From Pseudomonadales bacterium (GTDB lineage: Bacteria > Pseudomonadota > Gammaproteobacteria > Pseudomonadales > Azotimanducaceae), in the NCBI GenBank assembly GCA_028279305.1, contig JANQOA010000183.1, positions 1 to 64,000 of the forward strand: a DNA stretch of 64,000 nt, given 5' to 3'. Shown here one piece after another: positions 29,361 to 34,408 of the stretch (positions are counted from its first letter, which is position 1; every line of letters starts with the position of its first letter). The notes beneath the pieces were generated by a model, which saw only the letters and a list, made by a program, of their open reading frames with translations, ran no database searches and was not told the origin of the DNA. A program made the position numbers and the translations under genes.

Positions 29361-31171
29361 AAGTACAGGCTGGTCAGCACCCAGGTCAGGGTCAGCCACA
29401 TTAACACGGTCAGCGGCACCCCCACTTTGACAAACTCGTTAAACGTATAGTTGCCGGCGCTCATGACCAGCAGATTGGTCTTGTAAGCCATCGGCGTAGC
29501 GTAACTCATGTTGGCGCCGAACAGCACCGCCAGCACAAAAGGCTCCGCGGGCAGTTGCAGGGCTTCCGCAATGCCGATTGCGATGGGCGTGCCGATCACC
29601 GCTGCGGCATTGTTGCTGACAATATTGGTCAGCACCGCCAGCAGCAGCATCAGGGCGGACAACACCACGGTGGGGCTGGCGCCCGCGGTAAAATACAGGA
29701 ACACCTGGGTCAGATATTCGGTGGCGCCGGTAATCTGCAGTGCCAGGCCCAGCGCCAGACTGGCCGCCACCACAAAGTACACCGACGGCGAAATGGCGCG
29801 GATGGCGGCACCCAGACCCAGACAGCGGGTGCCGAGCATGACGGCACAGCCGGCGGTGGCGGCAATGGCGATGGGCATGACCCCGGTGGCGGCCAATACA
29901 ACCACGGCGGCAAGGATGGCCAGCGCCAGGGAAGACTTTTCCGAACTGGGTAACTCCACGTTGCTGTCCAGCACCAGAAACTCGGTGGAGCTTTTGATGC
30001 GGCGGATCTGGTCTCTTGCGCCCTGCACCAGCAGCACGTCGCCCGGCTGCAGGATCACTTCGTGGATTTCCTCTTTGGCGCGCCAGATGTCTTTGCCGGC
30101 ACGGTGCAGGGCCAGCACGGCAAGCTGGTAACGGTCGATGAAGCGTGCATAAGACAGGTTGGCGCGGTCCAGGCTGGAACCCTGCACAACGGCTATTTCC
30201 GCCAGGGTCTGATTGCCGGCGGACAGCGGGTGCTCTTCGTCAACCGCGGTGTCGCCGGAATACAATACCGCGCGCAGCGACTCTTCAAAGGATTTCAGGT
30301 TCTGCGGCGTATCACGCACGCGCAAACGGTCACCGCCCCGCAGTTGCACGTCGGGCAGCGGCATCACCACGGTGTCGCCGCGGCGGATGCGTACCACCTG
30401 CATGTCACCGCCGGTCAAAGCAATGGTTTCCGCCAGGGTTTTGCCGCTGGCCAGGGATTCGTCGGTGAGCAGCAGGCGGGCGTCGAACAGGCGCGGCGAG
30501 GGGTCGGACAGCTTGGAGACCCGTCCCGGCAGCAGACGCGGCGCAATCAGCCACAGGTAGATGATGGCCACGGCGCCGGCAATGCTGGCCGGTAGCGCAA
30601 AGTCAAACAGGCCGAATTTCTGCATGCCCAGGTCTTCCGCCACACTGACGACCAACAGGTTTGTCGACGTGCCGATGGTGGTGGCCATGCCCCCCACCAG
30701 GGTGGCAAAACCCATGGGCATGAGGATGCGCGAGGGTGAAGTGTTGTTGCGCAGGCAGACGCTGATGAGGATGGGCAACAGCAGCACAACAATGGGGGTA
30801 TTGTTGACAAAAGCGGACAACACCGCGCCCACAAGCAGGGTTGCCAGCAGCGACAGGAACGGCGCCTGGCCCCACAACCGTCCGAGGATGCGGCCCACCG
30901 GCTCCAGCGCGCCGGTGCGCACCAGCCCCTGTCCCAGTACCATGAGTGCGCACACGGCGATCAGGGCTTCGTGGGCAAAGCCGTAAAACAGGGTGGTGGC
31001 CTCAAAGTCGGCAAACGGGAACACGGAAAAGAAAACCACCAGCGCCACCAGCAATCCCAGCGAGGTGATTTCCAGCATCCATTTGTCTTTGCTGAACATA
31101 TACAGCGCCACAATGGTGGTGACCAGCATCACCAGAGCGTGCAGGTTGGGCAGTTCGGGAAACTCAGTCAT
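29357..31171 (-). CDS. SLC13/DASS permease with two RCK (TrkA-C) domains
   Basis: A 604-residue inner-membrane protein from ATG 31171. Two blocks of hydrophobic helices (with SAFVNNTPIVVLLLP and NIVSNNAAAVIGTPIAI, the two SNT/NNT-type substrate loops of DASS transporters) flank a soluble middle with two TrkA-C domains (about 215-420). Such proteins carry sulfate, dicarboxylates or similar anions. It overlaps MscS by 8 bases and the sulfatase by 4, so sulfate released by the sulfatase is the most natural substrate (inference). Two upstream in-frame starts were passed over because they lie deep inside the MscS gene. Confidence 0.85.
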   Translation of the reverse strand: MTEFPELPNLHALVMLVTTIVALYMFSKDKWMLEITSLGLLVALVVFFSVFPFADFEATTLFYGFAHEALIAVCALMVLGQGLVRTGALEPVGRILGRLWGQAPFLSLLATLLVGAVLSAFVNNTPIVVLLLPILISVCLRNNTSPSRILMPMGFATLVGGMATTIGTSTNLLVVSVAEDLGMQKFGLFDFALPASIAGAVAIIYLWLIAPRLLPGRVSKLSDPSPRLFDARLLLTDESLASGKTLAETIALTGGDMQVVRIRRGDTVVMPLPDVQLRGGDRLRVRDTPQNLKSFEESLRAVLYSGDTAVDEEHPLSAGNQTLAEIAVVQGSSLDRANLSYARFIDRYQLAVLALHRAGKDIWRAKEEIHEVILQPGDVLLVQGARDQIRRIKSSTEFLVLDSNVELPSSEKSSLALAILAAVVVLAATGVMPIAIAATAGCAVMLGTRCLGLGAAIRAISPSVYFVVAASLALGLALQITGATEYLTQVFLYFTAGASPTVVLSALMLLLAVLTNIVSNNAAAVIGTPIAIGIAEALQLPAEPFVLAVLFGANMSYATPMAYKTNLLVMSAGNYTFNEFVKVGVPLTVLMWLTLTWVLTSLYL

Positions 31172-32180
31172 CGCGGTCGCGGTAGTTTTCCAGCACGGCG
31201 TCAAGACGGCCGATTTGCCGTTCGTGACGGGCAATGGCCTCAGCGTTGGCGGCTTCGTCAGCATCGCGCAGTTCTTTCAGTTCGTCGCTGAGGCGGGCTT
31301 TGCGCTCGCGGAAGCGGCTCAGGCGTCCGGCCAGTTCGGACTTGTCGAACATGGCTTTTTCAGCTTTGCCGTTGTCCGCATCCGGGCTGTCACCGAACAC
31401 CTTGACCGGAATAACCGCGGCGTCAGGCGACAGCGGCCGCTGGTTCATAACCGCCGGGGTCATGATCTCCACACCGTCTTCGTGCAGCACGTCCAATACC
31501 GCGCCGCGCAGGCTGCTGCGGCTGCTGATGGCGGTGCTGCCGTCTTCCAGCAGACCGCTGATCCGATATGTCACCGCATAGTCGCCCAGGGTGGTGATCA
31601 GCACAAACGGCTCGGTCAGGTTGGCCTGTTCCGCGGCGGCCAGCAACAGGCGCCTGACCCGGCGCCGGTGCACGTCGTAGCCGATGGATAACTCCGTGGA
31701 AATCAGCGTGCCTTTCTGATCCACCACCTGCACCGGGTTGGTTATGATGTACAGGTTGGGCAGGTGGATCAGGTCCCGGTCTTCACTTTGAATCTCGGTG
31801 TGCAGCAGGCCCTTGGTTTTGACCCCGCCGAAGTAGTCGCCCACGCGGATGTAGTCACCTTCATTAAAACCGCCGGTGGCTTTCAGCATCAGCCCGGCCA
31901 TGGCATTGCTGACAAATGTTGTGGATGACAAGCCGACCAATGTCGTCAGCAGCAGTGCCATGATCTGGAAGATGAGGGTTTTGTCCTGCAGCGGCAGCGC
32001 GCCGACAAAAGCAAATGCCGCAGTAATGGCAATGGCGACAAAAAAAAGCTGGCGGTACAGACCCAGGGTGGGGCGGTTGGCCAGGGTTTTATTCAAGAAC
32101 CAGAAGGCCGCGGCCGCCACCAGCAGGGTGCCCAGGGGGGGTACGATCCATTGTATGTCCGGCGGCAGAATCTGATCCAT
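31164..32180 (-). CDS. MscS-family mechanosensitive ion channel
   Basis: A 338-residue channel protein. Three to four N-terminal transmembrane helices lead into the pore-lining region SSTTFVSNAMAGLMLKATGGFNEGDYIRVGDYFGGV, which is the MscS TM3/beta-domain junction. A predicted coiled coil (RLSRFRERKARLSDELKELRDADE) forms the C-terminus. It opens on membrane tension to release solutes. It is first in the operon with the SLC13 permease and sulfatase and is divergent from the thrS leader. Confidence 0.86.
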   Translation of the reverse strand: MDQILPPDIQWIVPPLGTLLVAAAAFWFLNKTLANRPTLGLYRQLFFVAIAITAAFAFVGALPLQDKTLIFQIMALLLTTLVGLSSTTFVSNAMAGLMLKATGGFNEGDYIRVGDYFGGVKTKGLLHTEIQSEDRDLIHLPNLYIITNPVQVVDQKGTLISTELSIGYDVHRRRVRRLLLAAAEQANLTEPFVLITTLGDYAVTYRISGLLEDGSTAISSRSSLRGAVLDVLHEDGVEIMTPAVMNQRPLSPDAAVIPVKVFGDSPDADNGKAEKAMFDKSELAGRLSRFRERKARLSDELKELRDADEAANAEAIARHERQIGRLDAVLENYRDRDD

Positions 32181-32193
32181 GCGGTTATTGTAC

Positions 32194-32223
32194 TTGGAAA
32201 CAGCGCGACCCGGGTCGCATAAT
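32194..32223 (+). promoter_or_regulatory. Candidate promoter of the thrS leader transcript
   Basis: TTGGAA (32194-32199), an 18-base spacer and CATAAT (32218-32223). A transcript would start near 32230, about 54 bases before the leader ORF. Confidence 0.55.
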
Positions 32224-32251
32224 CCGCGCCTTTAATTCAACCGAGGGTACA

Positions 32252-32282
32252 AAATTGCGCGTTTGGATGATAAATTGCGCGT
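32252..32282 (+). repeat. Direct repeat AAATTGCGCGT x2 in the thrS leader
   Basis: The 11-mer occurs at 32252-32262 and again at 32272-32282, exactly 20 bases apart, just before the leader ORF start. It could be an operator or part of the leader RNA fold; no function is shown. Confidence 0.5.
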
Positions 32283-32283
32283 C

Positions 32284-32373
32284 ATGAACGTTGAGCAGAA
32301 CAAGCGTGGGCTGAAAATCAGGCAGCGCACGCAGACGCGAACTACCGGAACCACTACGACCAGAGGTTGGTGA
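32284..32373 (+). CDS. Thr-rich leader peptide (attenuator ORF) of thrS
   Basis: A 29-residue ORF, ATG 32284 to TGA 32371-32373. Residues 16-26 are TQTRTTGTTTT: eight Thr codons (ACG, ACC and ACT mixed) in eleven positions, near the C-terminus. It is followed by a hairpin (32399-32425) and a strong terminator (32436-32467), then by a threonyl-tRNA synthetase. This is the classic geometry of ribosome-mediated attenuation, in which stalling at Thr codons prevents the terminator. A ribosome-binding site is weak (GGA about 17 bases upstream), but a 6-residue ORF starting at 32267 ends in an ATGA overlap with this ATG and could couple translation. Confidence 0.8.
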   Translation: MNVEQNKRGLKIRQRTQTRTTGTTTTRGW

Positions 32374-32398
32374 GTCGCGCGCGAACGTAATATTTGAC

Positions 32399-32425
32399 AA
32401 GCGGCGGCTCCCCAGGTTGCCGCTT
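32399..32425 (+). promoter_or_regulatory. Leader hairpin between peptide stop and terminator
   Basis: AAGCGGC pairs with GCCGCTT (7 bp, 13-base loop). Its 3' arm and the next bases (32423-32428, CTTCCC) can instead pair with GGGAGG (32441-32446) of the terminator, so an alternative antiterminator fold is possible. Confidence 0.5.
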
Positions 32426-32435
32426 CCCCAACAAG

Positions 32436-32467
32436 ACCCCGGGAGGCACGGCCACCGGGGTTTTTTT
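32436..32467 (+). terminator. Intrinsic terminator (attenuator) before thrS
   Basis: ACCCCGG (32436-32442) pairs with CCGGGGT (32455-32461), an inner GGC/GCC extends the stem, and seven T residues follow (32461-32467). It lies 40 bases upstream of the thrS ATG and downstream of the Thr-rich leader ORF. Confidence 0.9.
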
Positions 32468-32506
32468 GTTGAGCGGCAGAATTAAGCATTGCAGACAGGT
32501 ACAACA

Positions 32507-34408
32507 ATGAAGGTATTTGAACACGAAGGGGATTCCCAGGCGCAGGATGAACTGTACAAGGTGCGCCACAGTCTGGCGCATGTCATGGCGCAGGCGGTGC
32601 TGGAGATGCGGCCCGGCAGCACCCTGGGCTTTGGTCCGCCGATCAGTGACGGGTTTTACTACGACTTCATCCTCAGCGAACCGCTCACCGAAGAGGATTT
32701 TCCGGAACTGACCCGCCGCATGAAAAAAATCATCAAGAAAGGTCAGCGGTTCGACCACGAAGAGTTGCCGGCCGCGGAAGCCCTGCAGCGGATTGCGGAA
32801 ATGGGTGAACCCTATAAACAGGAGTACGGGGCGGAGTTGATCGACAAACACGGCCTCAGCAGCTTGTCCTTTTACCGCAACGGACCTTTTCTGGACATGT
32901 GTGAAGGTCCCCATGTGCACACCACCAGGGACATTCCCCGCGACGGCTTTAAGCTGCGCTCGGTGGCGGGCGCCTATTGGCGCGGGGATTCGGACAACGT
33001 GATGATGACCCGCATTTATGCATGGGCGTTTCTGGATGCGGAAACCCTGGACAAACACGTTACCGCCTTTGAGGAAGCACAAGCCCGGGACCACAAGAAG
33101 CTGGGCCGCGAGCTGAGTATCTTCACCATCGATCAGGACATCGGCAAGGGTTTGCCTTTGTGGCTGCCCAACGGCACGGTTATCCGTGAAGAGCTTGAAA
33201 ACCTGGCCAAAGAGCTGGAGTTCAAAGCCGGTTATCAGCGTGTTGCCACCCCGCACCTGGCCAAGGAGTCCCTTTATCATACCACCGGCCATCTGCCCTA
33301 CTACGCGGAAGATATGTACCCCTCAATGGAGTTGTTTGAGTCCGTGGAGGCGGAGGGGTCGGAGGAGGCGGGTGAAGCCGGGGCGGCGGCCGGCGATGCG
33401 GCGCAGCCGGAGCAGCGCTTGAAAGAAGCTTACCGGCTGCGGCCCATGAACTGCCCGCATCACCACAAGATTTTTGCCGCGGAACCGCGCAGCTACCGGG
33501 ATCTGCCCATGCGCCTGGCGGAGTACGGCCAGGTGTACCGCTTTGAAGATTCGGGTGCGGTGGGTGGACTTGTCAGAGTGCGGGGCATGGCGATGAACGA
33601 TGCGCACATTTACTGCACCCGGGAGCAGATCAAAGACGAATTCAAGGCGGTGATCGAAATGTCGCGCACCGCTTACCGGATTCTGGGGCTGGATGACTTT
33701 CAGATCCGCCTGTCCCGCTGGGACCCTGAAGATCCCAAGGGCAAAGACAAATACGTCGACAACCCGGCCGCCTGGGAGGCTTCCGAAGCGATTCTGGTTG
33801 AAGTGCTGCGGGAAATGCAGACCGACTACAAAGAAGGGGTTGGCGAAGCTGCCTTTTACGGTCCGAAGCTGGACTTCCAGTTTGTCACCGTCACCGGCCG
33901 GGAAGAGAGCGTGTCTACCGTGCAGTTGGACTTTGCCGTGCCCGAACGCATGGGTTTGAAGTATGTCGGCGCGGACGGTGAGGAACACGTGCCGTATTGT
34001 ATTCACCGCGCGCCGTTCAGCACCCATGAACGCTTTGTGGCGTTTCTGATTGAGCACTACGCCGGCGCGTTTCCAACCTGGCTGGCGCCGCTGCAGGTGC
34101 AGGTGCTGACGGTATCGGAACAGTTCGACGAATATGCCGGCGGCCTGGTTGACCGCCTGCGCGGCCAGATGGTGCGCGCGGAATTGGCGCCTTCAAACGA
34201 TACGCTGCCGAAAAAGATCCGCTCCGGCACCACCCGCAAGATTCCTAACCTGCTGATTGTCGGTGAGCGGGAGGCAGCGGATGGAACGGTCACGCTGCGC
34301 CGTTACGGCCACAGGGACCAGCACACCATGAGCGTGGATGACTTTGAAAAGGCGCTGCTCACCACCATACGGGAGCGGCGCCTGGAATTTGCCCTGCCGG
34401 AAGGTTAA
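32507..34408 (+). CDS. thrS: Threonyl-tRNA synthetase, TGS-less variant
   Basis: A 633-residue class II synthetase charging tRNA-Thr. The N-terminal TGS domain of the usual enzyme is missing: only ~20 residues precede the editing motif RHSLAH, and the second editing motif MCEGPHV (Cys, His) is intact. The zinc Cys/His residues are kept in RPMNCPHH, NDAHIYC and CIHRAPF. An acidic/Ala-rich insert of about 25 residues (ESVEAEGSEEAGEAGAAAGD) precedes motif 2. PMNCPHH and VGGLVRVRGMAMNDAH differ from the common PMNCPGH and HGLMRVRGFTQDDAH. infC does not follow, unlike the typical thrS-infC order. ATG 32507 is chosen over an in-frame TTG at 32489. Confidence 0.93.
   Translation: MKVFEHEGDSQAQDELYKVRHSLAHVMAQAVLEMRPGSTLGFGPPISDGFYYDFILSEPLTEEDFPELTRRMKKIIKKGQRFDHEELPAAEALQRIAEMGEPYKQEYGAELIDKHGLSSLSFYRNGPFLDMCEGPHVHTTRDIPRDGFKLRSVAGAYWRGDSDNVMMTRIYAWAFLDAETLDKHVTAFEEAQARDHKKLGRELSIFTIDQDIGKGLPLWLPNGTVIREELENLAKELEFKAGYQRVATPHLAKESLYHTTGHLPYYAEDMYPSMELFESVEAEGSEEAGEAGAAAGDAAQPEQRLKEAYRLRPMNCPHHHKIFAAEPRSYRDLPMRLAEYGQVYRFEDSGAVGGLVRVRGMAMNDAHIYCTREQIKDEFKAVIEMSRTAYRILGLDDFQIRLSRWDPEDPKGKDKYVDNPAAWEASEAILVEVLREMQTDYKEGVGEAAFYGPKLDFQFVTVTGREESVSTVQLDFAVPERMGLKYVGADGEEHVPYCIHRAPFSTHERFVAFLIEHYAGAFPTWLAPLQVQVLTVSEQFDEYAGGLVDRLRGQMVRAELAPSNDTLPKKIRSGTTRKIPNLLIVGEREAADGTVTLRRYGHRDQHTMSVDDFEKALLTTIRERRLEFALPEG

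Follow-up and report, generated by a model that had tools for sequence, protein, structure and literature searches.

The window analyzed here is a stretch of 64,000 nucleotides (nt), positions 1 to 64,000 of the forward strand of contig JANQOA010000183.1, from the Pseudomonadales bacterium assembly GCA_028279305.1 (family Azotimanducaceae). It carries a gene for a threonyl-tRNA synthetase (ThrRS) that is preceded by a short open reading frame (ORF) rich in threonine (Thr) codons and by an intrinsic terminator. We refer to this gene as thrS2 and to its product as ThrRS2, labels coined here for a divergent form of the enzyme that has no TGS domain. The arrangement is very probably a ribosome-mediated transcription attenuator, predicted from sequence to couple transcription of thrS2 to the charging of tRNA-Thr. 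Read from the window, the order of the elements is a minus-strand neighbour gene, the leader ORF, a hairpin (hairpin B), the terminator, and thrS2. The window corresponds to contig C29 of draft genome G000 (5.7 Mb, 399 contigs, 97.4% complete, 6.6% contaminated), and the neighbour gene, at 31164-32180 on the minus strand, is mechanosensitive-channel-like as judged from its translation.

The leader ORF (32284-32373, plus strand; ATG at 32284, TGA at 32371-32373) consists of 29 codons and a stop, encodes the predicted peptide MNVEQNKRGLKIRQRTQTRTTGTTTTRGW, and has comparable leaders in relatives. Its codons 16-26 (32329-32361), the putative sensor, include eight Thr codons in the order ACG, ACG, ACT, ACC, ACC, ACT, ACG, and ACC. 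Downstream lie hairpin B, which folding places at 32400-32424, and the terminator CCCCGGGAGGCACGGCCACCGGGG with its T run (32437-32467), which has the form CCCCGG..CCGGGG followed by seven T and ends 39 nt upstream of the thrS2 start codon. The gene itself (32507-34408, plus strand; ATG at 32507, stop at 34406-34408) encodes a threonine--tRNA ligase of 633 residues, with TTG at 32489 as a possible alternative start in the ORF listing. These elements agree closely with the original prediction made from the same sequence, which had described the 29-codon ORF with eight Thr in eleven codons that can be read directly, a hairpin at 32399-32425 (within one base of the folded one), and a terminator with seven T at 32436-32467, 40 bases before the gene. 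Searched against Rfam at gathering score, the window yielded only a tRNA and no known leader, riboswitch, or T-box; for 32150-32560 there was no Thr_leader or T-box match even at E 10.

Conservation of the leader and the terminator

We compared 111 ThrRS2 upstream regions (33, together with 78 of a further 79) with regard to two features: a terminator motif, CCYCG..CCGGGG-TTT, usually with AGGC..GCC inside, and a Thr-rich ORF, defined as an ORF that starts with ATG, stops upstream of the terminator, and contains 4 or more Thr within 11 codons. The motif is present in 55 of the 111 regions, and a Thr-rich ORF is found in 43 of these 55 compared to 3 of the 56 motif-less ones. The original prediction had named retention of the Thr run and the terminator in related genomes as the point on which it would turn, and the 43 loci bearing both span at least 15 of the 25 family genera in which ThrRS2 occurs. 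Its interpretation as a Thr-leader attenuator is thus supported by this association, as well as by the covariation described below. When other residues are put to the same enrichment test across these 55 loci, Arg (13) ranks second, followed by Ala (10) and Gly (7). The leader stop lies a median of 49 nt from the terminator in the 43 loci, and the Thr density in leaders of relatives reaches 9 in 11 codons. Over 30 leaders, Thr is encoded by 76 ACC, 76 ACG, 36 ACT, and 6 ACA codons, and AC doublets number 184 in frame versus 18 and 4 in the other frames, a figure helped by selecting the ORF for Thr. By comparison, a Thr-rich ORF was found in none of 22 canonical thrS upstream regions (10 from the genus and 12 from the order).

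These counts bear on the possibility that the ORF is coincidental and that the hairpin upstream of thrS2 serves as an ordinary terminator or as a processing site. Such an explanation would fit the failure of a simple terminator scan (loops of 3-8 nt) to find a terminator at the locus, which occurred because the loop here exceeds that range, and it would also fit six of the 55 motif-bearing loci (L137, L139, L157, L160, L173, and L177) in which we saw no convincing Thr run by eye; in L139, three scattered Thr in a long ORF were not accepted as a leader. It is nevertheless exceedingly improbable, as it is already contradicted by conservation: the Thr-rich ORF is strongly associated with the motif, synonymous Thr codons are used in frame, and the antiterminator co-varies.

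Further motif-bearing loci outside the 43, likewise inspected by eye, include L164 and L194, where Thr-rich ORFs have a GTG start, L140, L174, and L181, which have three consecutive Thr codons, and L006, where the Thr leader is displaced by an insert. Three loci have a Thr-rich ORF without the motif (L166, L185, and L223), and their terminators appear by eye to be divergent or interrupted. Within the genus of the window, the motif is present in 8 of 23 ThrRS2 loci. A strict version of the terminator pattern, which missed three of these eight, gave five matches in 5 of 40 genus genomes, each just upstream of ThrRS2, and no second copy in the genome of the window.

Some loci depart from the common layout in other ways. 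The insert in L006 (genome G009) is a palindrome of ~160 nt with terminal inverted repeats, situated inside hairpin B and absent from the close relative L130 (G046); it has the appearance of a miniature mobile element within a regulatory RNA. At L185 (G561), the 3' arm of the terminator appears displaced and the attenuator seems to be interrupted by an insertion or a repeat, while L173 (G476) and L174 (G474) have a common repeat between leader and terminator that likewise seems to interrupt the attenuator (all three by eye). At L138 and L141-L143 (genus g16), ThrRS2 lies closely downstream of an apparent aconitase C-terminus. No attenuator is present there, as though thrS2 had been relocated to a different operon. 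L008 (G003) has a strong hairpin upstream of ThrRS2, with neither a Thr-rich leader nor the conserved terminator motif, and is possibly a decayed attenuator.

Leader start and alternative RNA structures

A -10-like hexamer, in many cases TATCAT or TATGAT, lies 6-10 nt before the leader ATG in 24 of 30 non-redundant leaders; such matches average 3.6 per offset at distances of 5-11 nt and 0.32 at other distances, and a -35-like match of at least 4/6 is present in 15 of the 30. None of four Shine-Dalgarno-like motifs was found in the 15 nt before the ATG of any of these leaders. Because of the -10-like hexamer near the ATG and the missing Shine-Dalgarno-like motif, the leader is probably translated from a leaderless mRNA. 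The corresponding element of the window, TAAATT at 32271-32276 (plus strand), 7 nt upstream of the leader ATG, is a predicted promoter element of such an mRNA; the match is weak (4/6, with a -35 of just 3/6), and another promoter-like site is located at 32194-32223.

According to the model we propose, transcription would start at or just upstream of the leader AUG. With ample Thr-tRNA, the ribosome would pass the Thr codons to the leader stop and cover region 2 (32372-32382), which overlaps the stop codon; hairpin B (regions 3:4) could then form and sequester the antiterminator, and the terminator (5:6) would halt RNA polymerase. With scarce Thr-tRNA, the ribosome would stall in the Thr run, allowing region 2 to pair with region 3 (32401-32410). 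Region 4 (32415-32428), the 5' strand of the antiterminator, would thereby be free to pair with region 5 (32441-32453), the 3' strand, and thrS2 would be transcribed. Region 5 comprises the GGRAGGC..GCC within the terminator that is common in relatives. In vivo, thrS2 would be expected to respond to the charging of tRNA-Thr.

The 291-nt leader folds at -103 kcal/mol compared to -87.0 kcal/mol for dinucleotide shuffles (z -3.18), with 1 of 200 shuffles being as good. We folded the RNA of the window as far as the terminator loop, with the ribosome masked at different positions. When the mask is placed on the last Thr codon, 32372-32382 pairs with 32401-32410 (2:3), and the antiterminator (4:5) is formed by 32422-32428 with 32441-32447 and by 32415-32419 with 32449-32453, a pairing that overlaps the terminator stem and is mutually exclusive with it. 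With the ribosome at the leader stop, hairpin B forms and the outer 5' arm of the terminator is largely free. The antiterminator originally proposed, CTTCCC with GGGAGG, turns out to be the core of this longer pairing. The 1:2 hairpin is weak or variable in these leaders. In the modelled folds, an additional alternative pairing that involves the leader stop region offers an explanation of how the antiterminator would be controlled by a ribosome ~40 nt upstream.

Antiterminator pairing is higher in the stalled state than at the stop in 13 of the 14 loci of a first set and in 38 of the 45 loci of a larger one, in the latter by more than 0.05 in 35 and by more than 2 units in 23, with a mean difference of 3.0 versus 0.8 in shuffles. 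For the window, the values are 11.9 and 3.5, and 1 of 40 shuffles has a difference as large. Footprint folding, which had been suggested as a check along with the original prediction, thus goes in the expected direction in most loci, while single loci often fall within the range of their shuffles; it suggests a six-region switch, with modest support per locus, and ribosome-dependent switching stands as a modelled property. Covariation is better evidence. Over 30 non-redundant loci, the antiterminator strands have a 4:5 energy of -17.9 kcal/mol with their own partners compared to -15.0 kcal/mol with swapped ones, and none of 20000 permutations is as good. Hairpin B, 2:3, and the control pairing 2:4 were tested on 23 of the 30 loci, seven having been dropped for short regions or long spacing; the permutation p is 0.008 for hairpin B and 0.11 for the control. 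At the level of sequence, the Thr run, the terminator, their conservation, and the 4:5 covariation are shown. A leader-RNA alignment placed hairpin B poorly.

Several observations weigh against the attenuator. The 56 of 111 ThrRS2 upstream regions without the terminator motif imply that the control is dispensable, and the Fisher p of ~3e-16 for the association of Thr-rich ORF and terminator still includes shared ancestry. The minimum-energy fold of the window's full-length leader combines features of the two states and served as evidence for neither. In footprint folding, 7 of the 45 loci show the opposite direction, at most 2 of 40 shuffles are as large in just 11, and 32% of shuffles on average reach the observed difference, which makes the approach weak for single loci. 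Untranslated window RNA shows little antiterminator pairing (4.3) and that of several other loci much. Covariation of 2:3 is marginal (permutation p 0.04).

Since ribosome position alone sets the fold in the model, and since a leaderless start is predicted, the element might instead be a general translation-stress sensor, in which any slow translation of the leader would raise thrS2 rather than the charging of Thr-tRNA specifically. We consider this very unlikely, given that Thr is the enriched residue (43 of 55 loci, compared to 13 for Arg) and that the regulated gene encodes ThrRS. There is likewise only a very small probability that the leader peptide, or the leader RNA left after termination, has an additional role in trans, as reported for trpL of S. 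meliloti. That leader peptide, too, is encoded at the 5' terminus of a leaderless mRNA (PMC7298713), a layout similar to the one predicted here, though its codons are for Trp and it belongs to a biosynthetic operon. Beyond close relatives, the leader peptides have little in common but the Thr run, which is kept in otherwise unalike sequences such as MNPIGQTTATTTTTTTRGGAP, MNAVNAINYTTTTTPTLSWVSRRE, and MRRQTTTTTTTRIGSASRAVMIA, and a conserved product is therefore unlikely.

Identity and distribution of ThrRS2

ThrRS2 of the window matches the curated thrS model TIGR00418 at 590.9 bits (cut-off 383.65). Its Pfam domains are tRNA_SAD, tRNA-synt_2b, and HGTP_anticodon only, which stand for the second additional, class II core, and anticodon-binding domains, the Pfam search having found no TGS domain, and its residue 14 aligns to residue 66 of chain 1qf6_A. 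The residues aligned to Cys334, His385, and His511 of that chain, which we take to be Zn ligands, are kept, and the positions matching the Zn ligands and the editing residues, with roles presumed to be the same, are invariant across 16 aligned ThrRS2. With the solved structures 1nyq and 1qf6, which we take to be S. aureus and E. coli ThrRS, the window protein scores 538.8 and 397.7 bits, respectively. By these sequence comparisons, the gene belongs to the ThrRS family and differs from the usual gammaproteobacterial thrS. A comparison of presumed drug-site residues with E. coli ThrRS (Tyr462 kept, Leu489 replaced by Val) led nowhere, and we make no claim from it.

Of the 40 genus genomes, 23 contain ThrRS2 at E 1e-200. 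Across the family, it occurs in 114 of 206 genomes and in 25 of 37 genera, and among 390 genomes sampled from the order it occurs in 14, all of which are within the family. Named relatives include the gammaproteobacterial bins CALHVX010000110.1 (73%) and JAPOYV010000079.1 (70%). Because 105 of the 114 genomes have a single TIGR00418 match (E 1e-60), ThrRS2 is apparently the sole ThrRS in these, among them the single-contig genomes G561, G351, G562, G577, and G419; with no more than six candidates scored per genome and many assemblies incomplete, second copies may be missed. Two matches are found in 9 of the 114. By its scores, G040 has one gene in two pieces, and the second G485 match is not among the matches listed. 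Among the matches listed, at least seven genomes (G000, G006, G008, G010, G477, G484, and G500) have both ThrRS types. A model in which the attenuator is present only where thrS2 backs up a canonical thrS was ruled out as a general rule: motif and Thr-rich ORF occur in six of the at least seven two-ThrRS genomes among the matches listed, and ThrRS2-only genomes bear the attenuator too, for example, G019, G047, and G570. The single-contig genomes G433 and G434 (genus g143) each have two thrS model matches, with the best E near 1e-105 and no full match, and their thrS may be split or frameshifted.

The canonical thrS in the genome of the window (contig C177, open frame 643) shares 42 and 39% identity with ThrRS2 in two matched parts. 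In this genome alone, it may be contamination, given the 6.6% contamination of the bin and the somewhat lower G+C of the C177 pieces (0.55-0.56, compared to 0.59 in the window); G008 (30 contigs, 99% complete, 4% contaminated) carries the same pair of types. The gene that follows it (L002/L003) is short-chain-dehydrogenase-like, as read from the sequence, and not infC, which usually follows thrS in gammaproteobacteria. In a quick tree of 43 chosen ThrRS sequences, supported by the Shimodaira-Hasegawa-like approximate likelihood ratio test (SH-aLRT) only and including one short, long-branched row (L055), 13 ThrRS2 rows form one fully supported branch. This branch adjoins sequences from Bdellovibrionota, PVC, and Myxococcota bins and is well separated from eight canonical gammaproteobacterial ThrRS, among which the C177 protein groups beside same-genus copies. 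We tentatively propose, as a scenario falling a little short of an even chance, that many family members swapped the native thrS, which had protein-operator feedback through its N-terminal domain, for a horizontally acquired TGS-less ThrRS unable to autoregulate in this manner. The feedback would then have been restored in the form of a leaderless Thr attenuator with six regions, and where the canonical enzyme was kept, thrS2 would be a back-up induced automatically upon starvation or inhibition of the main ThrRS.

Relation to known systems and significance

The mechanism is that of a classical attenuator. The E. coli his attenuator has a six-region layout in which 1:2, 3:4, and 5:6 alternate with 2:3 and 4:5; the same two sets of helices would alternate here, with Thr codons, thrS2, and a weak or variable 1:2. 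A Thr-codon sensor is also found in E. coli thrL, which senses Thr and Ile and controls biosynthesis; its Rfam family, Thr_leader, has no match here. The leader peptide of E. coli pheST contains Phe codons. Conditional control of ThrRS in two-ThrRS genomes is known from the T-box genes thrS and thrZ of B. subtilis, whereas a leader peptide would serve here.

A zinc repressor serves in Anabaena, where thrS2 is under Zur (PMC4787780), again in a genome with two ThrRS. Attenuation of aminoacyl-tRNA synthetase genes is described for E. coli pheST and, as candidates whose leaders have cognate codons, for trpS and leuS in Streptomyces (PMC1262725, PMC4082710), in each case with other amino acids and synthetases. 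The original prediction held that a Thr leader for thrS was not a described arrangement. There is, however, one tentative precedent: RNA-seq of S. lividans indicated leader peptides before alaS, thrS, trpS, and leuS, with thrL-thrS being SLIV_19412/SLIV_19410 and thrL a leaderless ORF of 18 residues with two Thr (PMC8079986, 2021). Its authors report one hairpin and no U-rich stretch, and call termination unclear. The two systems are alike in the proposed leaderless Thr leader upstream of thrS, and differ in that the present leaders, with as many as 9 Thr in 11 codons, are combined with a strong terminator and a co-varying antiterminator and precede a gammaproteobacterial ThrRS without a TGS domain. 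The consulted portions of PMC2965389 and PMC4833913 contain no thrS leader, and among the matches listed from openly licensed literature, as far as these texts were covered, we found no Thr leader for thrS beyond S. lividans and none in Proteobacteria. Within the reach of these searches, what is new is a complete Thr attenuator, co-varying and present family-wide, on a ThrRS without a TGS domain. E. coli ThrRS binds the translational operator of its own mRNA, for which its N-terminal region is needed (PMC7373986). Both arrangements provide feedback on ThrRS supply, and the attenuator would, we infer, stand in for translational autoregulation in ThrRS2, which is without that region.

The tentative proposal from Streptomyces gains a fully formed case elsewhere, and the element would suit an Rfam family. 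The control of E. coli ThrRS is a textbook example of protein-operator feedback; the same need is apparently met by leader-peptide attenuation in a ThrRS without the domain that the textbook mechanism requires. With leader, terminator, and enzyme open to comparison across 111 upstream regions, among them apparent losses, and across species that carry one or two ThrRS genes, the replacement of one regulatory circuit by another can be tested directly. For the bacteria themselves, conservation of the element in many relatives suggests that more of the enzyme is made when charged threonine tRNA is short.

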